This document shows positions 856 through 21,858 of a stretch of 30,175 bases of DNA, piece after piece (the stretch's first letter is position 1; each line of letters starts with the position of its first letter). The position numbers and the translations under genes were made by a program. This DNA comes from Saccoglossus kowalevskii (taxonomy: Eukaryota > Hemichordata > Enteropneusta > Harrimaniidae). Location of the stretch: the NCBI RefSeq assembly GCF_000003605.2, contig NW_003109084.1, positions 263,043 to 293,217 of the forward strand, given 5' to 3'. The notes under the pieces were generated by a model, which had not been told where the DNA came from, did not search any database, and saw nothing but the letters and a program-made list of their open reading frames with translations.

Positions 856-3800
856 GATGGGTTGCCGCAACCACTGCTCGTTTATTTTGTCATCAGCCAA
901 TTACAATTTTCGTTCACAGCTTATACAGAGCTAGGTTACTATGCAGTTACTAAACTATATGGACTTGACGATGAGATTGGTAATGCCGCCAGGAACTGTA
1001 TATTTTATCTGAGTATATATCCACTTATAGATGGAATTGTGAGTAAATTGTAATGCCAAACTAAAATTAAATCAATAAATAAATTCCTAGTATTAAATAA
1101 TTTGAATATTGTGAAATACTGTAATACAGTAAATGACAAAGAATGAATTCCATATTAGGATGATTGAGTGTGCATATTTCTCAACAACTTCATTAAATTA
1201 GGTTCACACTGTTGTTAACAGAGCTCAATCAGTTATGATTTGTATGTAGTAAAATTTATTTCTACTGTCCTGATATTCTGTGACAAACCAGGCAAATATA
1301 ACTGCCACTAATTTTAATACAGTGTACTGTTTTGATTGTGGTGATGTTTGCTTGTTCACAAGAAAGTTTAAAACATGCAAATATTCAATTGTTGTACAGT
1401 ACGGCATACATTGCTGAACTTTATCAAAGTTTTTCAAGAGATATTATTATTATTTTTACAATCATTACAGGCTCAGTTGTTTGCTGGTATTCTACTACAA
1501 CACAAGTACAGTACATTGGTAGGAGGAGCTAGTATTGTGGATGTTGGCTTACAGGTAATGTTTAAATTGTTTGATGGTAGTTTATAATAGGTAATAGGTT
1601 GTTGATGGTACACAAAATAGTTGGTAGTGAGTGGTTGATAGTAGATAACAGGTTGTTTATGGTACACATAAAACAGTTGGTAGTGAGTAGTTGATAGTAG
1701 ATAATAGGTTGTTGATGGTACAAAATAGTTGGCAGTGAGTTGTTGATAGTTTGTAGAAGGTAGTTGATAGCAGGTAATTGTACAGGATTATTGTGTCAAA
1801 TTTTGTGTAAACACACAATGTATGCATTATTCACATATTGGGTACAATGTTATGCATTGAATGAGGCACTTAAAGGCCCAAAATATAATTGTTGCTGGCC
1901 CTGAGAGATGGGCCTTTTTTCTTATTTATTTATTTTTTGCAATAAAATTCTTGTATTTTTGCAACACTTATAAGCAACCATAAATAAATGTGAGATGTGC
2001 ACCTTTCAAACCGAGGCATGTGCTGATCAGAAACTAATCTATTTTCAAGCTTGGATCCAATCAACCCAATATTGTGAGGGACAACCTCAGATATTGAATT
2101 TCACTATCATCTGTACTGACTTTTCATTTTATATATTTCAGTTTATAACAATGCAATTACAATTGTAACATGATGAGTGGTAAAAAAAAAATGATAACAA
2201 TAATATTGAGATATTTATTTAATAGATTGGCACAACTATTGGTCTACTACATACAAGTTTATCTGTTGTCTTCCCTGTGATGATTCCAACAATAGCACTC
2301 TACTTAGCAACGTCTGTCAGACTTACCATATTACTTGCGGGATTCTTCAAATTTATATACCCAAAGCAACCGATCACTGTCAGCACTTCAGATGGAGTAA
2401 GTCATATTACATATTAAACATTTTCTTCATGAGAAATGTCACTTATTTAGATGCTATCAATACCTGTGACACAGAATAAAAATCAAAGATGGCGGCAGCT
2501 GAACCACCCTCGGCCAATCACACGCATCACAAATACTTTCAGATGGATTTTCATATTCTCCAAATATTTTCAAAAACATCAATTTTTATCAGACTTGGAT
2601 TTCGTCCAATCAACAGAAACAAATTTTGAAAACTTCAGCGTTATGCAAAACTGCAGAAAAAAATTAGTAGGATAGAGGTTTCAAATTGAAGTGCATGATG
2701 AAAAGAAACAAAAACAATTTTTTTGGGCCTAATCTCTGATCTCATTTGATGGTACATGAAGTAAGTGACCTAGACTGGCGCAGTCGGGGCGATTACTTTG
2801 TTTTTGTAGTTTGAATAAAATAAAATAAATCGCGAAATGAAAATAAAAAAATTCGCAAAATGAAGGTGTTAGCGCGATTCGCAGTTACAGGGGATTTTGC
2901 GCTAACACCTCCATTTCGCGTTTTTTTTATTTTATTTAAACTACAAAAACAAATTAATCGCCCTGACTGGGCCAGTCTATAAGTGACCCTACAATATGAG
3001 ATTCATTAAACTTGTGCAGTAATTTTCATTTTCTCAGAGCTTTTTGTGAGGAGCAAATGGAAATTACTACACAAGAGAAGCACAAGTTTCAATTTCTCAT
3101 TGCTCAATGAAGATGATGTGATAAGTGTAATAAATAACAGTAACTACTGTCAAAACTTGTAAGTCAACTGTGAAAATTCTACTACAATATAGTGAATCTC
3201 TTTTTGTGAAATTTAGTCTTCAACTAATTTGTTGGCAGATGATGGGACTGACTGTGAGGAAAGTATTATGGTTCTGGTGGCCATTAGCACTTGTACGTTG
3301 TATTCAAATACTTAGCAGGCCGATCTGTAATGTACTCGTAGCACGTGATCTGGATGATCCTGAAGCCACTGTACAGGTAATTAAGTCTTGTACTGTAAAA
3401 TACTTTATTTTAGCTGAAATTAATTTTCCTTGAAAAATGAATTTTAGTATGAATTTTATTTTTGACTAATGAGTTGAATGTAGAATTCAAGAAAAAGGGT
3501 AATTTCAATGATTAATTCAGATGGAGTAATAGCAAAAATAAATTCCAAGTAAAAATTAGGTAATTTACAATTATTATTAGTAGTATATATCTAGCATAAA
3601 AAACAATAAAAATTACTATTCTGTTAAAAGCTGTTTCCATATTCATTCCAAAATATATCTGCAATTGTTCCAATGTTCATAATTTCCTTTATTTGTGGTA
3701 AAATACGTCACCAACACTGGAACGTTCATATTGACAACAAATTCTTTTCTTTATTAAAGATGCATATACCTGTGATGGGAATATCATTGAGCGCAAACCT

Positions 3801-8813: not shown

Positions 8814-9139
8814 GTACAACACAAGGTAAATGATCTAAGAAGTGGGCATTACAGACGTCACTGACCAGTCTAGATCTCAAAGTGACTTAATAGTAACCCT
8901 GTCCTCATGTTGGATTTACAGCTTAGACTGTTGTTGGCTTCACACAAATTACCACACATAGTGCTCTCTAGTTGATGTCTTCAAGTCAGCTGTGCAACAT
9001 GTGAATATGTCAACACGTATTTGGTTGATTTTACAAAACGTGTTATACCCATATATATATATATATACGTTGTATTACACAGGTACAGTATGTTACTGTA
9101 TTACCAGTATGTTACATTGTATTACCAGTACATAAAATG

Positions 9140-12100
9140 TTATCGTCTTCTGTGAATGACTTCTGTTAGTCCTTGTTCTATCAACTGTAAGTCATCTGCA
9201 TCATCTTTTATAATGCTGATAAGATGCCGAATGCCTTCTTGTTGTTGTCTTAAATGCTGTGAACAGACAAGTTGAAGGAATGAGACTTTGGCAAATCTGC
9301 ACAAATACTACACTGACATCTGCACAGGTTCTCTATAGAGCTCCTACACTGAAATCTACAATAGGTATTCTTATCAAAGTTTTCCATCATCCTGTAAATT
9401 TTGCTAGTGGATGATTACTATCAAAACGAATCAGATCTTTTGATTGCCATGAAAGTAGTGAGAAACTCACTATTGGTTCCTATGGTAAAAATTTTTTTTG
9501 TTTTTTTTATTTCAAAATGTTTGTTTTAGTGAAACTATTACATGGAATTATAATAGTTACGACTGTCATGATTAATATTTAACATGAAATAATGATTCAA
9601 CATGCATTCATACTATGTAAGAACACATTCACGGCTTGTGTAAAAATTTTAAAATAATGAATAACAAATACATTTTTAGTTCTATTGCTTTAATCATAGA
9701 CAAGCAACTCCAGTGATTCTATTGTAGTAGGGTGGGCTGGAAAAAAGTTAAGCTGATTTAAACTAACCGTTAACATAAGCTAAATGTTTATTTCGATTTC
9801 TCGTAAAATGCATGTTTTAGGTGTTGACGAGAGTTGCCTAAGTTATTGTAGAAGTCTTTGAAATTATTAATGAAAACGGGGTACAGCATAGGTAGACGTG
9901 TATCCAGGCTGAAAGACTGGATGTTTAGTCAAAATGGCGACAGATGTAAAAAATTAACAATGGAATGAAAGTCTATTTTTGAAAAAATGCGAGACAGAGA
10001 ACAACAAAAAACAAGCGTAGTCAGTGAAAAATAACAAAATTTGAAGATCCATGCATCATGAAAACAATAATATTTGTGTATTTTGTCGAAAACGGGGTAC
10101 AAACTTGGACAAGCATTCCCTTTGAAAGAGTGTGAACAGGTAGTCAAGATGACGACAGACATGAAGATGACACATGAAAACAGACTGATTGAAAGTTAAT
10201 TTAAAAAAAGTGCAAGGCAGAAAACAACAAAAAACGATTCATGCATCATGAAAAAAGAAATATTCAAATATTTTGTCGAAAACAGGGTACAAACTGAATA
10301 TAACATTTACCTACCACCACATTTAGTTAACATGTACAAAAACATTTGAACATATATATTAAAAGTAATATTTACTAGTGAACCACGGTCACGGGAACAA
10401 CTGATAACTATTATGTGTTCGAAAGATGCGTATTGCGGAAAGAAAACGACTCGTTTAGGAAAAGATCCTTGTAGTTTGATACGAAAGTAGTGACATCGCA
10501 TCGAAATAAATATGATGTCATTAGAATATTCCAGTCCAGCTTGCGTTGGGCATCTGGCGTTTGACTTTGATGTTTGCCGCAGTTGCGCGTCCTTCCTACT
10601 ATACTGTCTATGCTTTAATGTACAAATCTTAATTTCGCTATAAGACAACTACAATAACCATGTTTGATAGTTTTACAGAAGTATTGGCAATGGTCTATAT
10701 TCTTTGTCTTCTGTGACATACTCAGTCTTAATTCTGATAGGCTCACCTGTTTGATTTCATCTTGCAAAGCAAGATCCATTGAGTATCTTTCTTCAGTTCG
10801 GGCTCCTAGAGCTTGGCTTTGCATTCGAATCTGAGACATCATTTCATTGAGACGACCCTGAGTGATTAGTGAGAATAAAACACACATACACAGATTAGTC
10901 AGTGTCGAAAGAATATGCAGCGTAACATATTCACACAAATCAGAGATAGACGACAGCTCTCCTTAAAATGACCTACATTGTACATGTATTAATTCAAAGT
11001 AATGTCATAACTATCTGGGTAAAGTCCGGGTAAGGTTGCTACAATTATACCGTAGGCAATCATGTATAATTTAATTAATAACGAAGGTGTACACTGAATT
11101 ATAATTCTCTCATCTGATAAGCATAATAATAAAATAAAGTGCTTATTAATACAGAAAAAACACTTATATGCTAATTAGTTAATTAACATGCATTTATCTA
11201 TTATTACTCACACAGACCCAAGTAACTGAATACTTGAAATTTTCATCCAAAAAACACAAAATCATCATAATTAATTTTTCATTTTGTTTTACATCTTTCA
11301 TTTTATTTTTTGTAACCAAATTCACAACAATGAGCCCTAAGATGATTTGTTATTTCATTAAGGCATAATTAAGCATATTATTATACCATGGTATCTCAGT
11401 AACAAACATAATCTGGGGTATCAGTAACAGCATGCTATAAATGTGTTGTTACATCCCACCATATTAGGAAATGTGGATTCCAAATATGAAATGATTATGC
11501 AAATATTTTTGAAAACAAAGTGGACTGTAACAAAAAACTACCAAGTTTGGACTGCATGAATTTGAGATATAAGCCAAAATGTGCGAAAAAGGACGAAAAA
11601 TTACCAATTTCCATTAAACAAAATGGCTGGTGATCAGCCATATTAATAGAATCTCAACAAAAACTAACTTGCATCTTTGTGAAATAATATATGCCCTCTG
11701 CACCAAATCTGAATGAACTTAATTGTAAGCTGAAGCTATATGCAAAACAAACAAAACAAAATGGCCTCCAGTTGTCAAACTTTTTGGGGAAAAATTTGAA
11801 AAATAATGAATGTACCCCAGTATACCAACAACTATCACCCATAATCTATGTTTGAACAGAATTGGCGAGTACAACTAAGAGACAATGCTTTACACATATA
11901 AAATGGAGATATGAGTCAAATATGGCTGCCAGTCGGCCATTTTGTATCTGAACAGAAACAAAATCTGGGGGCATATGTCTACTACCATATACCAATCATG
12001 TACCATGCTTGGGGGAAATCGGTCCATGAACATATGAAATATATTGTGATGAAACTCAATCCATAAGCCTTCGGACTGGGTATATCACAAGGCGTATAAA

Positions 12101-15100
12101 AATGGCTAATTCAGTGTTGCCAATAAGCAACTGTGGTGGCAGTATTAAGTAACTGTATAAGGAACAATTATTTACCTTGAACTGAGTGGGTGCATTTAAT
12201 TCAGCCTGTATTGACTCTAATTGTACTCTAAGTTGTTCCTCATCAATTTGTATAGCAAGACCACTTTTTCTGTAAACTTCTTGTACTAGCATAACCTGTA
12301 ATCATTTTCAAGTACACGTATCAAGAATTATTTAACATATTGTGACGAACGGGTGCACTTTCAGAAGTTGAATCCCTTGAACGATTTCACTCGTGTGATT
12401 CTGATATGAAATCAATGTCAAAGTGCTACAATTGTCATGCTGTGTTGTGTTCAATATGGGACCATACACAACGTGTGTAAAATACATTGCATGAAATACG
12501 AACACCCGCTGCATGACAAATGTAGCGTTTTAAAATGTGCTGTTATGGTGGTGTAAATGCTAGATATAGGCAAACACAAATGGGAATTCTTACCTGCAAA
12601 ACTCTATGTGAAAGTTCAGCTTGTTTTCGTTTATACTCCGCTAACTTAGCATGTATTGTGGATTGATTTCTTTGAAGAGTAGAAATGTCTTCTGCAATTA
12701 TCTAATCGAAAAATATATCTTTCTTTTAGAAAAAAAACATTTGGCTGGAAAAATCTTGTCAATTATTAAAGATGATTTCAAATAGATATATGACTGGCAT
12801 AAATTGTGGTACAGTAATGACAATATAAGTCCCTATTTTTGGGCTACATATGAGCAAGTAAAATCAAACAAAACTTACAGATAATGGAAATAATATGTAG
12901 ATGTAGTTTTATCGTATAAGCAAAGCTGTGCAGCAATTAATGGTATTTATTTTTTTCATAGCATTAAGTAAAACTGTCAACATTTTCAGGATTAAAACTT
13001 CTTTGAAGTTTATTGATGTTGACTTACATTCAGTCTACCTTGGTGTTGTTTATTTTGTTGCTCCTGATGTTTAAATCTTGAATTCAATTCACTGAATCCA
13101 ACCATGGGAACTGGAATTAAACTGAATAGGAAAATACATCAACATGCATAAATTTAAAACTGAATCCAACCATGGGAACTGGAATTAAACTGAATAGGAA
13201 AATACATCAATATGCATAAATTTAAAACTGAATCCAACCATGGGAACTGTAATTAAACTGAATAGGAAAATACATCAATATGCATAAATTTAAAACTGAA
13301 TCCAACCATGGGAACTGGAATTAAACTGAATAGGAAAATACATCAATATGCATAAATTTAAAACTGAATCTAACCATGGAGACTGGAATTAAGCTGAATA
13401 GAAAAAAAAGATCCACCCACCCAGGAACACAAAAACATGTAAACATAGTTCACCTATTAAAACCTTGCCCTTGCATACATAAAATGTGCAATGTTAAGTT
13501 CACCACTTCAATCATGCACTATCAATTATATAGTTCACACAATTTTACTGTACATACTTGGCCTAACCACTAGTCTGAGGTTAACACATGGCCTGCTGAC
13601 ACAATTTTCACCCATTCATCTGTGGAGGCTTTCATGAGTGTACAAATGTGAAAACCTATCATAGGACAACTAGCAAAGAAAATACTCTTCTCCAGCAGAA
13701 AACAATTATGTATTAATAGATAAGCTAAACCGTTTGGAGGCGGGGGTGTTATAGGTGTACTTACTTTGATGGGTCAGGATTGTCAAGTTTTGCTTGTCTC
13801 CATAATCGTGGATCATAACCTATGAAATATAGTGGATGAAGTGAAGGCATTAGAATTAGAATATTTTTGAGAACACCCTCAAAAACAAATTATCAAAAAA
13901 TTAGGAATCTAGATGTCAATAATGAATCTGAAAAGTTGAAAAAAAGCTATGTTAGGAAAATATTCAAACCTGACAAATAAGTGGCTAACAATGCAGCAAT
14001 ACTTTTTATGTCATCGCTATATTGTTGCATACCACAAAATGTCAATATTGTCAGGAAATTTACAAGACTGTTTAGCTATGCATGTCTTGAGAGTATTTAA
14101 TCATCTGATTGATCAAACCATTTTTACGAATGAGCGCCATTTGGTTAAATGTGGGCAGTGTAACACAAATTTATTTAGAGAGATTATTTACTGCCTCTAT
14201 AGTTTTGATATAACATAATATTTGAACATTTTTTCTAATGGCTAAATTAGAAATAGAGTGAACATATTTGGAGCAAAATGCAAGGACCAAAGTAACAACT
14301 CTATGTAGTTATACACACTCATATACTTGACTAGTGACTTAATTCTCTTTTTGGCTCAATGGACTATAGGCCGGCTAAGCCTATGGGATGGATTTCTGTC
14401 CTGAGTCTGTCGTCCGTCTATCTGTCTATCTGTCTGTCTGTCTGTCTGTCTGTGCACGACTTCTTCTCAAAAACCGCCGAACCATTTGACTCGATTTTTG
14501 GTGTGTGAATGCCTTGATGAGTGTAGATGGTAATTTGTTCATGAGAAGTCGATCTGCCAAAAATTATGCAAATTAGCCCCCCAAAACTCTACTGTGGCGG
14601 TCTATAGTGAGAGCGCCTTCTATAGTATGGTGTTGGAATAACTTTGTTTATGAATAAGTCTGTGCATCCCTGTGTCGGTCAGTCGAATTGTTTTTGTCTG
14701 TGGGCAGGTCGATTCTCCTGTTTTCTNNNNNNNNNNNNNNNNNNNNNNNNNNNNNNNNNNNNNNNNNNNNNNNNNNNNNNNNNNNNNNNNNNNNNNNNNN
14801 NNNNNNNNNNNNNNNNNNNNNNNNNNNNNNNNNNNNNNNNNNNNNNNNNNNNNNNNNNNNNNNNNNNNNNNNNNNNNNNNNNNNNNNNNNNNNNNNNNNN
14901 NNNNNNNNNNNNNNNNNNNNNNNNNNNNNNNNNNNNNNNNNNNNNNNNNNNNNNNNNNNNNNNNNNNNNNNNNNNNNNNNNNNNNNNNNNNNNNNNNNNN
15001 NNNNNNNNNNNNNNNNNNNNNNNNNNNNNNNNNNNNNNNNNNNNNNNNNNNNNNNNNNNNNNNNNNNNNNNNNNNNNNNNNNNNNNNNNNNNNNNNNNNN

Positions 15101-18100
15101 NNNNNNNNNNNNNNNNNNNNNNNNNNNNNNNNNNNNNNNNNNNNNNNNNNNNNNNNNNNNNNNNNNNNNNNNNNNNNNNNNNNNNNNNNNNNNNNNNNNN
15201 NNNNNNNNNNNNNNNNNNNNNNNNNNNNNNNNNNNNNNNNNNNNNNNNNNNNNNNNNNNNNNNNNNNNNNNNNNNNNNNNNNNNNNNNNNNNNNNNNNNN
15301 NNNNNNNNNNNNNNNNNNNNNNNNNNNNNNNNNNNNNNNNNNNNNNNNNNNNNNNNNNNNNNNNNNNNNNNNNNNNNNNNNNNNNNNNNNNNNNNNNNNN
15401 NNNNNAATTAAAAAATAAATGCATATTACATTAAAATACTGAGTATTTTTTGTATCATGTGGAATTTTTTTTGATTGACTGTAATTTTTCAACATTATGT
15501 AACGCCTATTTTAGAACCAAAATAATGCCTTTCTCTCTTCCCCGACGCCTATTCAAGAGATTGTACGGTGTATTGTTTGTTTTGTGCATGTGTTGTGGAC
15601 AAAAAATGACCACGCCCATTTAGTGATTGCAATATGTACTTAATAGAAACCGCACCCCGAACTTCAGCTTTTGATCCCAATTTTTAAATTGATACATTGT
15701 AATATAAACCGTGGTTTATAATAGGACTTTAACGGTGGTTTTCCCATTTCACACGGTTTTCATCGACCAATTTCGGACCATCGCCCTCAAAATAATTGAT
15801 GAAATAGTTTCAGGACCCATCGACAGTAGAAAGGTAGAAACTTAAGGCGAAAATAATGAAAAAAACAAACAGATGTTACTATTTTAAAATGGTCATTTTT
15901 GGTCAAAAATTCTATTTTCGACTTCTTCTTCAAAACCGGTAGCCTGAATGCTTTGATACTTGGTGTGTATGTACCTTGTGTTGACATCTACTAGATTTGT
16001 TCATTTCATGGCCATATCTTTAATTCTCTAATTTTGGCAAATATTTTTGTCATTTTTGGTTAAAAATGGAATTTCAACAAACCACTATTTCCCATTGCTT
16101 TGGTGTTAGGCATACATGTGTTTATTATTCTATTGACAACTTTGTGTGGTTGTTTGGCGATATTTCATTTAAAAGTACAAATTTAAACGAAAAGTTGTGG
16201 CATATACAGCACTAATCTTTTGTACAATAGCCGTTGAGCAACAGGCCATTGGCCTGTTTTTCCATTAGCCATACGTCAATTTCTACAAACGGATGCAATA
16301 AATTGAAACTAAAATGCATCATACTGCAAGTCTATATGTCCCTCAGTATCAGTTTGATGTTCGGTTGACCCAATCAGATCCAATAAAATACATAACATGC
16401 ACAGCAAAGCAGTCAATTCATTAGCTGGCAATAATAATGGTGAACAACACCAATGTGATGCTGACAGTAACAAGATCACCAGACAACACGTTTTTGCATT
16501 TTGAGGCCAGTCAACTTCCTGTTTGTAATATTGAATATAGCTTAACAAGCCAGCTTACCTGCCGGTGGGTTGTCCATGTACTGTCGTAACTGAGCTTCTG
16601 TTAATTCAGTTTTAGGCATCATATTATCAACACCTAGATTAACAAGTTGCTGCTTGATGGTTGGCTGAGATAAAAAACTAAACAGATCAGTAGCAGACAC
16701 TCTCTTTGATGTACCGGTCGGTAGACGCTCAAGAAGATAGATAAGGACTTCAGTTCTGAAAAACATTCCGCATTACTGTAGTTAATATTGGCTGGACAAT
16801 ACATCTGTGTTGCAGTTCCCTTCAAAACGATCTACTAGCTTCCTGATTTCTCGCAACACTGTATTCTATCCTACGTACCACGTATTTTGGACAGAGCCCT
16901 CACACTTACCGATCATCTGGCAGCGCCCTCACACCTTCAACGCAGACAGACAATGTAGGTTTGCTTCCCAGTAACTTAAACAAGTTGTCAACAATTTGTT
17001 GCTGGTAACTTCGTATTTCTGATTCTTTCTTCTTGAAATCCAATGCCACTAGACCCAACTCATTCTTTGTGGATGGTTTACAGCTGTACCCAACTGTCTG
17101 AAACAGGAAAGCAAATGTAAAGGGTGGTGGACATTGCGTTCTGTATGTGCGAGACTTTCCCATATGGAACCAATATCTCAAGCATATTTGCGAAATGACC
17201 ACCACTATTTAACACTGAATGTCATGCATGCATGTATAATAATATTATAAGTTCTTTGTTGAGAAATTATTGTATATTCTGTTGAATTGTTCATAAAGTT
17301 CCCATCTTTCATTGGTATATATTTGACAGTGTATTATGAAATGTTTTTCATCTTCTGTTGTTTTACATATTTAGCAAATTCTTTTGTTAGCTGGTGTTTT
17401 GGGACGTGTGTGTCTGGCAACTTCAATCCCAAGGCTATGACAGCTTAGTCTTAGTGTGGCCAATGTTTTAATATCTTGATATTTTTCAGTAATGTTTAAA
17501 TAGGGTGCATATTTAATTGTATTAATCAAAAGTCTGTATGTGTGTAGTTTAAACTTTCCTCTATTGTTGGTCTCATTTCAGATCTTTCTGTTTTTTAATA
17601 ATGTCAATATTTTACTTTTTTTTATTATATTTAGATAATGTATCCAAGAGTTTTTGCAACAATTTTAAGGTAATTATGTTCCTATTCCATAATTCTCGAT
17701 TGTGTTCCTCAGACTATATAGTTTTTTAAGTGCTTGTATTAAGAGTGGGATTCCATATTTGAACACCACAGAAGGTATTCCATCACTGTGCTAGCTTTCC
17801 TTGTCTTCAGTTTTCTTAATACAGCATTTATTTCTTGTATTGTAATTTGGTTGTTCAGCCATTCATTTCTATTCATAGCATCTTCTATTAATTCTGTATT
17901 TTTGTTCTCTTTTCTACTGGTTGATGTACTTGAGTTTATGCTAATTCATTGGATGTATTTAATCTATTCTGTGTATGGAGTCTCTAAGACATTGCTATTG
18001 TTGCTATGATGTGAATATTCTCTTATAACATTTCATAGTTCTTGTTGTGATGTCTCATTTAGATTACTGACTTTATCTTGTAAGGTGCATAATAAAAACC

Positions 18101-21100
18101 TCAAACCTTTGAATGCCAAACTTTTGTTACCGTTGACAACAATTTTCTCAAAAATTTAAAGATTAAAGACCTGCAGGTACTGAAATATTTATAGAACATG
18201 CAAATTTTTGGGTGTGAAAAATTATTGGTTCAAAAGGTTAATGTGTTACACATGATCATCAAAGAATAGAATGCAAAACTGATGACAGAATCTTCTGACA
18301 CTCTGCAAGCATCCACTGATCTGTGAAACTATATTTACCTTAAACCTGCAAAAAGGGTTATCAGGTGAGAAGTCAACAGATGCATTCTGGGTGTAATAGC
18401 CTTTACCAGTTCCCCAAAATGCTTGGATCTGATTCCATTTGGCAAAAACAATGTCTCTTTCATCACCAAATATCATAGGCAAGTGTAGCGCACTGGCTGT
18501 GTTTACAAGCACATTGGCAGAGTTGGCTTGCTGGCCTGTCAAGCAACAGAAAAAAGAATAGTTTACAAAATCACTATATTTACCATATTGTATTGTTTTT
18601 TTTTAATCAGACAATTTGGTGGTAGTCACAAAAACTAGTTACCATGACATCATAAATTGCTAATGGTACAAAAAAACAAATTAAGTTGTATGGTATAAAC
18701 AACGTGAAGCTATGATGTATCCTCTCAGTAAGTACAAGATTCAATAGCAGTAACTTAAGCCATTAGCTGAATTAATAGTTTTGTGCACATCAGTTCAACC
18801 AAGGTAGTAACTAACAACTAGTGAACTAACCTTGAATGCCTGTACCAAGTCCAGTTGTGCCCAGACCAGTAGTACCAAGACCAGTGGCACCCAGTCCAGT
18901 AGTACCAAATCCAGATGACAACCCAGTGCCAAGTCCAGTCCCTAATCCAGTCCCTAGTCCAGTGCCAAGTCCAGTGCCAAGTCCAGTTCCTAAGCTGGTA
19001 CCAAATCCGGTTCCGAGACCAGTACCTAATCCTGTCGCAGAAGACCCAAATCCAGTCCCAAAGCCTAATCCAGTTCCAAATCCAGTACCCCCTGTGGTAG
19101 TAGTTGTTAATCCAGTACCTAATGCTCCTGTACCAAGACCAGTTCCCAACCCAGTGGTTCCAGTTCCAGCTCCAAAACCTGTAACCAAGAATACAGTGAC
19201 AGACAGAATTGTCCCAGAGAGAAATCATAACTGAGTAGGTTTTTCTGACAATTAAATCTTGGCTTTACATATGTAGAAATATATTCTGTGATGTCAGAGA
19301 TTCAAATTGTGTATCTACATTTATACTCACTGATTACTACAAGCTATTTAAATGTGCCTTTGGGGGGAAGGGGTAGTAAATACGTATGTAACGAGAAGCA
19401 TGTCTGCCTATGATAGCTAGACACATTTTCTGTGGTCATGAGTTTGAATCTCACTAGTGTTTATATGTTTGAATGTACATGTAATTAAAGCATATGAACT
19501 GATGTCATATCAGAGTAGATTTATTACATGGTCTTGCATACTAATTAACATTAGTAGGAAATATATTCATTTCAGTTTCGGAACTGTTTCATTTTTATTT
19601 GACAAACATGATTAATGCCAACATCAAACCGATATGCATGGATTTTGGCGATTGAAAAGAAATGGAACATGGAAACAGTGAGTAGTTCTTGATCGTGATT
19701 AGTATATACTATTACTAGTATACTTGTTACCTTGGAAAGAAAAGGATCCTGAGGGCGCTGTTGTGGCTGTAGTAACAGTTCCAAGTCCACCGAAGAGAGA
19801 GGGTGCTGTTGTTTTAGTTGCACCAAATCCAGAGAAGCCAGTAGTTCCTGAACAGAATAATAATAAGTTTATTAACACTTACACATTCCCCGGAGGGATT
19901 GGCAATGGTTACAAAAGTTTAAGAAGGAATAAAACAAAAAAATAAATAGATAAAATAAAACAAACTAAGCTAATAATACATTACAGAGAATAAAAAAAAT
20001 ATTAAGATTAAATTATAATACTACAAAAGATAGAAAACAAAATGCAAAACTTAAACTGTGAAAGAAAATTATCACTGGGGTTGCTGTCTTATTTCAAAAC
20101 ATTTCTTTAGGTACCTTGCTACAGGGAGTGTTAGGCCACTGTTGTTTAGCAAGGCTATGAATTGTGTCTTTGGTGGCAAATTTTTAAAGTTTTGGATTTT
20201 GGTTTTTGCCATTTCAAATAGGACATTTCTTTCGGGGGTATATCTTTAGCATGACATCATTAGGTGATACTCATCTTCTACTTCGTTTTGATCACAAAGG
20301 TTGCATAATCTATTAGCAAGGGGTATTCCTTTGTGTTTGCCAGTCTCAATTTTCAAGTTATGGTCACTGAGGCGGAATTTAGTCAAATTTTCGTGCATCT
20401 TTTTCATTTTGTTTTTATTGATTGTCGTTATGTAATTCACTTTTCCAAGTTGATATGAATGATGTTTGTATATTTTTGTTAATTCGTCCTAATTGCCTTG
20501 CTGTTAGAATTTCATTGCTGTCAACCAAGTTAGACTGGTTGATGTTATTCAGAAGGGAATCTATATTAGTGTACCATTTACTATTAATTTCTCTTTATTT
20601 TCTTAGAAAGCTAGTTTTAATAATGGATTTGACGAGTTCTTTACACGATTAAAATATTTGATCATTTGTTTTTCGATAAAAGTCTCCAATGGCAACGTCC
20701 AAGTTCACCGTATAAACCCATTGTTGTGATGTTTATGGATGTACCCAAAAGAAAACGAAAATAATTATATGTACATCTTCAATTGGTGATTTGAGTGTAA
20801 TTTCATCTTTCCACACATCACTACCATATGTGAGAATTGGTCTGATTAGTTTATCAAACAGAGAGAGTGACAGGGGTATACTTAGGTTTTTACCAGTTTT
20901 TCCCTTTAAAGAAAATAAGGCCTTTAAAGCTTTTCTTTTTATGCTTTTTAGGCTTTCCTTGAATTTCCCATTAGCATATAAAAAATCAAGATATAAAAAA
21001 AATAAAGAGACACGGTCATCAGAACTGCATATGTACACATCTATAGCTGTGGTTTAAATGTATAAGACCCTCTTCAGGACTGGTATGCACACTTGATGTA

Positions 21101-21363
21101 GACAAGATGTTTGATCACAGTCCTGAGGGACTGTGGTTTGTTGAAGTATTGATGACAGGTAAAGTTGCTGAGTTTTAGCTGATCGATCGGAGCTGATAAA
21201 ACTGTAGAAGTATTGATGGCAACTTCACAAGCTGCGTCGCACAGTGATGGAGTAATGTATTCGTACCTGTAGTCAACGCACTGCTTCCAAACCCTCCAAA
21301 CGCCGGAGCCGATGTTGCTGGTGGTTGGCCACCAAACGATGCGCTACCAAAGGAAAACGACAT
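9140..21363 (-). CDS. NUP54: Nucleoporin p54 (NUP54), complete, 12 exons
   Basis: NUP54 is a subunit of the Nup62-Nup58-Nup54 complex lining the central channel of the nuclear pore. Its FG repeats bind transport receptors and its coiled coils build the scaffold. Exons in transcription order: 21363-21267, 19847-19731, 19178-18831, 18535-18339, 17097-16910, 16755-16559, 13819-13765, 13121-13028, 12701-12594, 12295-12176, 10857-10747, 9256-9140 (TAA). Phases join throughout, giving 1,749 nt or 582 residues; human NUP54 has about 507. The start MSFSFGSASFGG is a typical FG N-terminus. Exons 1-3 (about residues 1-187) are FG/LG-rich and all phase 1. Then follow KWNQIQAFWGTGKGYY, NPFCRFK, VGYSCKPS, FKKKESEIRSYQQQ (alpha/beta region), PVPMVGF, and the coiled-coil exons with YRKSGLAIQIDEEQLRVQLE, ELNAPTQFKGRLNEMMSQIR and HLRQQQEG. 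The extra length comes mainly from the GLGT expansion in exon 3. The C-terminus ends VIHRRR, differing from vertebrates. Confidence 0.97.
9872..10287. repeat. Tandem duplication of about 200 bp in NUP54 intron 11
   Basis: AAAACGGGGTACA starts the first unit near 9874, the second at 10089, and AAAACAGGGTACAAAC opens a truncated third at 10279. Matching internal blocks include GTCAAAATGGCGACAGA versus GTCAAGATGACGACAGA, and CATGCATCATGAAAA in both, with ATTTTGTCGAAAAC at each border. Units are about 216 and 190 bases. No open reading frame is conserved between them. The neighbouring block 10380-10610 is richer in CpG than its surroundings but has nothing I can identify. Confidence 0.7.
10858..12175 (-). 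other. NUP54 intron 10, with a repeat rich in ATGGC/GGCCAT motifs
   Basis: The first half (10858-11530) is plain AT-rich sequence with nothing identified. From about 11540 to 12050 there is an unclassified interspersed repeat. Small palindromic blocks ATGGCTGGTGATCAGCCAT (about 11623-11641) and ATGGCTGCCAGTCGGCCAT (about 11924-11942) sit about 300 bases apart, each followed by a similar run (AATCTCAACAAAAACTAAC and ATCTGAACAGAAACAAAATC). ATGGCCTCCAGTTGTCAAAC near 11761 is a third, weaker unit. This looks like two to three diverged repeat units. Confidence 0.5.
13091..13410 (-). repeat. 68-bp tandem array copying the 3' splice site of NUP54 exon 8
   Basis: ACTGAATCCAACCATGGGAA recurs at 13091, 13159, 13227, 13295 and (as ACTGAATCTAACCATGGAGA) 13363: exact 68-base steps, four nearly identical units plus a shorter, diverged fifth. 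On the minus strand each unit reads CCTATTCAG, TTTAATTCCAGTTCCCATGG, TTGGATTCAGT. That is the exon 8 acceptor followed by the first 31 bases of the exon, then about 30 bases of intron. The genuine exon uses the unit at 13091-13121; the other four copies lie in intron 7, upstream in transcription. The 68-bp step is not a multiple of three. Reading on from an upstream acceptor copy meets an in-frame TAA at the next acceptor. Confidence 0.92.
13820..14726 (-). other. NUP54 intron 6, right-hand part before the assembly gap, with repeat sequence
   Basis: 13820-14340 is AT-rich with nothing identified. From about 14345 there is an interspersed repeat containing a GTCT/ATCT microsatellite (about 14414-14454), then blocks reading CTTCTCAAAAACCGCCGAAC, GATTTTTGGTGTGTGAATG and TTTGTTCATGAGAAG. 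A diverged version of the same order (CTTCTTCAAAACCGG, TACTTGGTGTGTATGTACC, TTTGTTCATTTCATGG) is found at 15920-16010 on the other side of the gap. Repetition probably caused the gap. Confidence 0.6.
14727..15405. other. Assembly gap (679 Ns)
   Basis: The run of undetermined bases lies wholly inside NUP54 intron 6, between the exons ending at 13819 and starting at 16559. Exon phases on both sides join (phase 1), so no NUP54 exon needs to be hidden here. The true gap length is unknown. Confidence 0.99.
15406..16558 (-). other. NUP54 intron 6, part after the gap, with repeat units
   Basis: No exon is seen. 15890-16110 carries the repeat family also seen at 14470-14540 and 7838-8065 (ATATCTTTAATTCTCTAATT, TTTTGTCATTTTTGG, CCCATTGCTTTGG). 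Near 16232 an inverted repeat AACAGGCCATTGGCCTG is followed by a T run. A similar AAAGGCCCA ... TGGGCCTTTTTT pair occurs at about 1873-1919 in an ANKH intron, suggesting a shared element end. The rest is unremarkable AT-rich intron. Confidence 0.5.
17235..18070 (-). mobile_element. Degraded LINE (non-LTR retrotransposon) in NUP54 intron 4
   Basis: Read on the minus strand, broken pieces of a LINE ORF2 appear. First comes an early reverse-transcriptase block with EINAVLRKLKTRKAS and DGIPSVVFKYG..LL.QALKKLY (about 17870-17690). Much nearer the 3' end is the C-terminal block LATLRLSCHSLGIEVARHT, ICKICKTTEDEKHFIIHC, YTNERWELYEQFN (about 17465-17260). The central polymerase motifs, including the expected YxDD, are missing, so most of the domain is deleted and the remainder is frameshifted. 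It ends in a TAATATTATTAT-type tail near 17235. It has the same orientation as NUP54 and belongs to a different family from the intron 1 LINE. It is not functional. Confidence 0.8.
18831..19178 (-). repeat. NUP54 exon 3: GLGT-type low-complexity FG/LG repeat
   Basis: This exon (about residues 72-187 of NUP54) is almost entirely Gly-Leu-Gly-Thr and related units, with about six FG dipeptides among roughly twenty LG dipeptides and a T5 run. At DNA level it is a minisatellite of 12-base and related units (GGACTTGGCACT-like). Both exon borders are phase 1, so unit gain or loss, or skipping of the whole exon, keeps frame. Vertebrate NUP54 has a much shorter GLGTGLGTG stretch as I remember it, so this is an expansion of an existing motif, not a new one. 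Confidence 0.9.
19179..19730 (-). other. NUP54 intron 2
   Basis: This 552-base intron lies between the two FG-coding exons. It is AT-rich, with a short G run (GGGGGGAAGGGG, 19363-19374). I see no exon, RNA gene or recognisable repeat in it. Confidence 0.7.
19856..21056 (-). mobile_element. Degraded LINE in NUP54 intron 1, with intact-looking 3' end
   Basis: On the minus strand, pieces of the C-terminal part of a LINE ORF2 follow in order. They include FLYANGKFKESLKSIK, ALKALFSLKG, LFDKLIRPILTYGSDVW (about 21000-20800); WYTNIDSLLNN, ARQLGRINKN (about 20575-20470); FRLSDHNLKIETGKHKGIP, RLCNLCDQNEVEDEYHLM (about 20380-20250, the usual Cys-Cys-His-type tail motif); and FIALLNNSGLTLPVARYLKK (about 20160-20100). 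Stops and frameshifts separate them. A T-rich 3' UTR then leads to GTTAATAAAC and a TTATTATTATT tail ending at 19856, ten bases short of NUP54 exon 2. The copy is 5'-truncated and lacks the catalytic reverse-transcriptase core. Confidence 0.85.
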
Positions 21364-21373
21364 TTTGCAACAT
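21344..21373 (-). promoter_or_regulatory. Overlapping upstream ATG/uORF at the NUP54 start
   Basis: An ATG at 21373-21371, ten bases before the NUP54 start codon, opens a nine-codon reading frame in another phase. It runs over the true start and ends at TAG (21346-21344). The NUP54 ATG has A at -3 and the upstream one has A two bases before it (AGCATGT). If the transcript starts upstream of 21373, this frame could lower NUP54 translation. The transcript start is unknown. Confidence 0.45.
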
Positions 21374-21560
21374 GCTGCTTATGACAGAAGTTTGAATCAA
21401 TGGCGGAGTTTTTATTGTATGGTTGGTGGTTGTGTACTTCCTCGAGAAGTGCGCCCGCTTGCAACATTTTTGTAGTACATTTTGTTTTTACTGTTCTTCC
21501 CTCGTACCTTTCCCATGTGCCTATGCAAACGCCCATGCGACAAGGTTGTCGCCCGCGGTC
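21364..21560 (-). promoter_or_regulatory. Probable NUP54 5' UTR and promoter region
   Basis: Upstream of the NUP54 ATG the base composition changes. CpG dinucleotides cluster (CCTCGAGAAGTGCGCCCGC near 21440, GACAAGGTTGTCGCCCGCGG near 21540) while flanking sequence is AT-rich. No TATA box stands out. This fits a CpG-containing housekeeping-type promoter, as would be expected for a nucleoporin, but the exact start site cannot be placed. Confidence 0.45.
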
Positions 21561-21858
21561 ATTTGATTGATTAAATGGGCATATTATTTTTAAAAATGAT
21601 CTTAAAAATTTTGGAAAAAAGTCATCAACTTTTGTTTTTAATACACTGTATTCAATATTTAAAAAAAAAAAAAGTCGTCTGAAAAGAGAGAAAATAACGG
21701 AATTTGTCGGTGTACCTTATTTCCATACCAATCTAAGACATTATTAAAGGTAATAATATGAATAATCAGGATTTTCGAACAATTCTTGGTTACCGTCATC
21801 ATTTTCAAGGTTGCGTGACCCATTTTGGAGGAGCGGAAGTACTAGTAGTTCGGTGATC

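Follow-up and report, generated by a model that had tools for sequence, protein, structure and literature searches.

A minisatellite array duplicates the exon 8 splice acceptor of a NUP54 gene

How is a gene spliced in which the same acceptor occurs five times in a row in front of a single exon? This question is raised by a NUP54 gene on the minus strand of the 30,175-nt stretch of DNA analysed here (the window), where a tandem array of 68-bp units runs across the boundary of intron 7 and exon 8. We confirmed that the array is real, correctly located and made from a duplicated NUP54 acceptor. Judging from its sequence, it is quite probably a mostly neutral minisatellite of the kind called a mirage, with the authentic acceptor at 13121 being favoured and some leakage into nonsense-mediated mRNA decay (NMD). 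The array represents a natural experiment in acceptor choice, as four matching acceptors and one higher-scoring outermost site share a common downstream exon, and junction counts would reveal whether the spliceosome goes by order, taking the first one, by strength or by closeness to the exon.

The exon model of NUP54 was assembled by hand from stop-to-stop frames of the minus strand. All 11 introns conform to GT-AG, and the 582 codons form a continuous frame. A phmmer search of the model against the PDB chains yielded 5ijn_F as the best match (E = 1e-175, residues 72-581), and every one of the 14 distinct sequences obtained at E values up to 0.001 was named Nup54, NUP54, p54, Nup49 or NUP57. 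Because the exon 8 product NLIPVPMVGFSELNSRF... was aligned with KLIPVPMVGFKELLRRL of chain 5ijn_F by phmmer, there is good reason to place the acceptor at 13121. The assignments made in a first-pass annotation of this DNA, which had named the gene as NUP54 and the acceptor as that of exon 8, are upheld by this match and by the intron 7/exon 8 boundary falling at 13121.

Analysis with Tandem Repeats Finder (TRF) gave 4.6 copies of a 68-bp unit with 96% matches and a score of 583, straddling the intron 7/exon 8 boundary. When the window was shuffled 20 times at the dinucleotide level (N removed; threshold 50), 18 of the resulting sequences were without an array, and two contained arrays scoring 51 and 53. 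The unit consists of a 44-nt core A, which at the real site comprises 13 nt of intron and 31 nt of exon, and a 24-nt spacer S. TATTCAG is present five times on the minus strand, with the first exon bases at 13393, 13325, 13257, 13189 and 13121. The first-pass annotation had correctly described the 68-bp unit with its TATTCAG acceptor and 31 exon bases, the five acceptor positions and the start of the array at 13091, whereas the end, given as 13410, is at about 13406 according to TRF. Its description of the copies as near-identical applies to the four exon-proximal units (13325, 13257, 13189 and 13121), which differ pairwise in 0-2 of 68 positions and whose acceptors, spaced 68 nt apart, are identical from -21 to +7. 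It does not apply to the copy at 13393, which deviates from the other four at 5-6 positions of the shared 44 and is not matched in the spacer: upstream of its core, 21 of 24 bases mismatch S in an ungapped comparison (26 differences over 68 positions, five of them in the 44). The coding copy, which forms the other edge of the array, is not diverged. Apart from the five copies, the 44-nt core was not found in the window when up to 15 mismatches were allowed on both strands. The earlier statement that the spliceosome meets five acceptors falls short, as each unit of the array contains three AGs and the 13393 unit one more, which makes 16 in all, with the five TATTCAG sites among them.

Four kinds of units are distinguishable, namely the diverged 13393 unit, the 13257 unit with its own change at +8, the type shared by 13325 and 13189, and the coding 13121 unit with its own spacer change. 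This makes several copies hard to explain as a pure artefact of the assembly, and it is very unlikely that the array owes part of its five copies to misassembly or merged haplotypes and in truth has fewer or more of them, even with the two units 13325 and 13189 being identical, a run of 679 N at 14727-15405 in NUP54 intron 6, only 1.3 kb from the array, and a lancelet mirage that looked aberrantly assembled in a draft genome (PMC3087553). Because of the two identical units and the 679-N gap in the scaffold, five is the copy number of this one assembly; in the organism it is probably variable. The positions of all features are collected in Table 1.

Table 1. Coordinates of the acceptor array and of the NUP54 features around it (positions in the window).
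Feature	Position	Strand	Description	Basis
Tandem array	13091..13406	-	68-bp period, (A S)4 A	TRF, unit comparison, core scan
A copy 1	13091..13134	-	authentic acceptor 13121 and first 31 nt of exon 8; 0/44 mismatches to copy 2	
A copy 2	13159..13202	-	intronic, upstream acceptor 13189; reference	core scan
A copy 3	13227..13270	-	intronic, upstream acceptor 13257; 1/44 mismatches to copy 2	
A copy 4	13295..13338	-	intronic, upstream acceptor 13325; 0/44 mismatches to copy 2	
A copy 5	13363..13406	-	intronic, diverged, upstream acceptor 13393, run of eight T; 5/44 mismatches to copy 2	
NUP54 gene (coding span)	9140..21363	-	12 exons, 582 aa; stop codon TAA	hand-built GT-AG model, phmmer
NUP54 exon 8	13028..13121	-	94 nt; true acceptor 13121, donor after 13028	exon model
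NUP54 intron 7	13122..13764	-	643 nt	exon model

Entry at 13121 leads to the 582-aa protein, whereas any of the four TATTCAG sites further upstream, if used as the entry, leads to 423 aa ending with ...DVFSYSV, the stop being a TAA just past the acceptor of the next copy. Translation thus bears out the earlier claim that only the last acceptor gives the normal protein and that any earlier entry runs into an in-frame TAA within one unit. The same is true in a wider sense for all 13 AGs of the four upstream copies, which lead to premature stops after 403-423 aa, located 92-345 nt before the exon 8/9 junction; in terms of stop placement, this agrees with the NMD-targeted transcripts proposed in the first-pass annotation. 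A stop that precedes a later junction by more than about 50 nt marks an NMD substrate, as in NMD-coupled alternative 3' splice sites (poison extensions), and by this rule the products of entry at the upstream copies are expected to be such substrates. Premature stops were also obtained for all 33 upstream AGs scanned inside and outside the array, so that this criterion does not single out the array. Within exon 8, use of an AG at 11 nt results in a premature stop, and an AG at 30 nt (13091, minus strand; GGATTCAG) gives an in-frame product of 572 aa, which is ten residues shorter.

The strength of the acceptors was evaluated with matrices of the Shapiro-Senapathy type for 3' and 5' splice sites and with branch-point weights, all of which are approximate, so the scores serve for ranking only. 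We scanned 41 AGs with first exon bases from 13734 to 13029 and also applied a second acceptor matrix built from the other ten acceptors of NUP54. With the Shapiro-Senapathy-type matrix, the five TATTCAG sites of the array occupy ranks 1-5 of the 41 AGs, 13393 scoring 10.7 and the others 7.8 each, within a range of 0.7-10.7 for the 11 real acceptors of NUP54. The own-gene matrix puts 13393 first (4.4), followed by 13246 (2.4) and then jointly by the other four TATTCAG sites (1.8). The inner copies carry a TTGAT branch-point candidate with its A at -18. For 13393, no good branch-point match was found from -15 to -45 (best score -0.6), and by eye a TTTAC was seen whose A lies near -47, without an AG in between.

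If the array is mostly neutral, most transcripts would use 13121, because it alone continues without interruption into the A-rich remainder of exon 8 with its donor. Exon definition from this donor, which scored 9.4, would favour the nearest acceptor, and entry further upstream would add T-rich sequence: exon 8 past the repeat contains 49% A and 19% T, compared to 47% T and 24% A in the 272-nt extension and 34% T in the NUP54 introns. Some entry at the upstream copies would be likely and would yield NMD substrates. RNA structure was considered as a selecting device and discarded, as the fold had a z value of -0.61, and 23 of 100 shuffles folded at least as well.

Several observations weigh against such a neutral reading. 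We regard it as the chief one that, by these approximate scores, the edge site 13393 beats the real acceptor with both matrices (10.7 vs. 7.8 and 4.4 vs. 1.8); moreover, the own-gene matrix also puts the upstream AG at 13246, which lies in the array, above the real site. The contrast in composition is not clean, because the exon head is itself T-rich (42%). RNA structure gives no advantage to the real site either, its accessibility (0.47) being the lowest among the five (0.55-0.60 for the others). A designed library analysed in human cells revealed no order preference between consensus tandem 3' splice sites, a result that applies to native contexts with sites 2-59 nt apart (PMC6783452).

The term mirage reportedly originated with Canestro et al. 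2002 in their work on Adh3, and the cases encountered under this name are from cephalochordates. The NUP54 array shares three features with them. It is a tandem array of minisatellite-size units (68 bp x 4.6, with a score of 583 and shuffles reaching at most 53), its unit consists of an intron end, a splice site and part of an exon with one copy forming the authentic boundary, and its inner copies are homogenised with a boundary copy being excluded (0-2/68 vs. 5-6/44; the coding edge is not diverged). In the BflGb6 globin mirage of the lancelet Branchiostoma, a minisatellite-like repeat likewise comprises the 3' end of an intron and the 5' part of the next exon, with several copies containing splice signals and boundary units left out of homogenisation, but its units are 150-160 bp long instead of 68 bp; those of the Adh3 mirage are quoted as 10-72 bp (all PMC3087553). 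A second paper adds PGBD5 and cites troponin C. The lancelet PGBD5 repeats also lie over splice sites and differ in copy number between two assemblies; unlike the NUP54 array, they are imperfect, and their correct splicing was inferred from homology with little cDNA (PMC3902484). Lancelet mirages are described as unstable in length. Based on Adh3 data and globin reverse transcription PCR, their authors suggest that regular splicing is not disturbed, and they also state that mirage copies could serve as cryptic sites giving aberrant transcripts (PMC3087553, PMC3902484). The NUP54 boundary array is an added case of this already known architecture and would widen the known range of mirages if its host is not a lancelet.

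The lancelet reports also bear on a reading of the array as a splicing decoy, in which the upstream acceptors would divert NUP54 pre-mRNA into NMD and the copy number would tune the NUP54 level. The top ranks of the five array acceptors with the Shapiro-Senapathy-type matrix and the premature stops from all upstream-copy AGs would suit a decoy, and there is precedent for intronic repeats steering splicing, as the variable number tandem repeat in intron 6 of hTERT, made of 38-nt units, is tied to splicing choice; the description of the hTERT units is that of intronic repeats, not of duplicated splice sites with adjoining exon sequence (PMC8150890). Still, we consider a decoy unlikely: the stops do not distinguish the array, no disturbance of splicing is suggested for the lancelet mirages (PMC3087553, PMC3902484), and the exon-derived part of the 13393 copy has lost P and G, which are replaced by S and R, and is therefore as expected without constraint. 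It is even quite unlikely that the copy number of the array sets the NUP54 dosage, with transcripts being lost to NMD through the competition from each added acceptor. If this were true, a core nuclear-pore gene would be under the control of a natural rheostat of polymorphic length and, if the host is not a lancelet, this would be the first mirage so named outside that group. In our judgement, a function of the array as decoy, NMD source or dosage device is more probably absent than present.

Repeats at exon-intron boundaries have another outcome in human segmental-duplication genes, where minisatellites are placed as in NUP54, with units of 30 bp on average and in recent primate paralogues; they are reported to generate novel introns or alternative splicing, opposite to the lancelet reports (PMC2812944). 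In the potato RdRp gene, a duplicated segment also crosses the boundary of an intron and the downstream exon, and a cryptic GTAAG donor from its exonic part made a new intron (PMC4974935). By analogy, an upstream copy in NUP54 might be on the way to becoming a mini-exon, with its own acceptor and a donor in the duplicated exon head, which would be the beginning of a new exon or intron. The candidate donor would be ATG|GTTAGA in the 13393 copy, which scores 4.8 compared to 2.1 in the other copies. This is the best donor-like site within the array, and it stays below the 7.3-11.3 of the 11 NUP54 donors by the approximate matrix; the unit thus offers no usable new donor and none of the quality seen in potato. 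Furthermore, a 19-nt mini-exon would shift the frame, and we regard this development as highly improbable.

Returning to a mostly neutral mirage, its origin may be pictured as follows. The minisatellite would have started with intron 7, whose 3' splice site was duplicated locally together with its flanks, the 44-nt A with the acceptor and the exon head first being duplicated 68 bp apart. The 13393 copy would then have diverged, and the inner units would have been amplified or homogenised recently by unequal crossing-over or slippage. The divergence of 13393 and the near-identity of the inner copies fit such an old duplication followed by recent amplification, and the recent expansion or gene conversion proposed in the first-pass annotation is supported by four of the five copies (0-2/68). 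A fractional array with the spacer absent at one end would be the expected remnant of unequal exchange between two earlier A copies. Neither the unit comparison nor the core scan gave any indication that the upstream copies are constrained. The intact TATTCAG in all five copies was dismissed as evidence for constraint, because the inner copies are too alike to be informative, and with 5 changes in 44 a heptamer would escape all of them about four times in ten. The position at the boundary was likewise dismissed as evidence by itself: the probability that a 316-bp interval placed at random includes a NUP54 splice site is 0.17, and of nine arrays (16 TRF rows merged; splice sites of an adjacent ANKH-like gene not counted), 0.62 are expected over a NUP54 splice site and one was observed.

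Among open-licence papers, none was found pairing Nup54 with a minisatellite; the eight listed of 5,068 matches for NUP54 and splicing contained none on a repeated acceptor by title or start of the abstract, and NUP54 was absent from the titles of the listed matches on boundary repeats. Viral contigs scanned with the C-terminal 331 aa of NUP54 yielded no relative. A search for other direct repeats of at least 22 nt within 500 bp (9000-14700 and 15410-21600; diverged or gapped repeats can be missed) gave none covering a NUP54 splice site.

The gene contains a second repeat-prone stretch in exon 3 (18831-19178), which is largely a coding tandem repeat of 12- and 15-bp units (GLGTG/TTGLG). Intron 11 harbours two 73-nt copies at 10033-10105 and 10223-10295, 190 bp apart and with 79% identity, and a remnant of a reverse-transcriptase zinc-binding domain (zf-RVT, E = 0.00033, below the Pfam cut-off) is present in intron 1 at 20246-20485 on the minus strand. 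The GC content of the window is 34.5%, compared to approximately 41% in lancelet genomes, which offers at most a hint about the host. Two of ten open frames scanned matched the ANKH family PF07260 on the plus strand, at 778-1050 (E = 9.3e-9) and 3134-3430 (E = 2.7e-10), so that NUP54 and an ANKH-like gene apparently stand tail to tail. Between the two ANKH-like frames, TRF detected a 56-bp tandem array at 1577-1750 with 3.2 copies and 84% matches.
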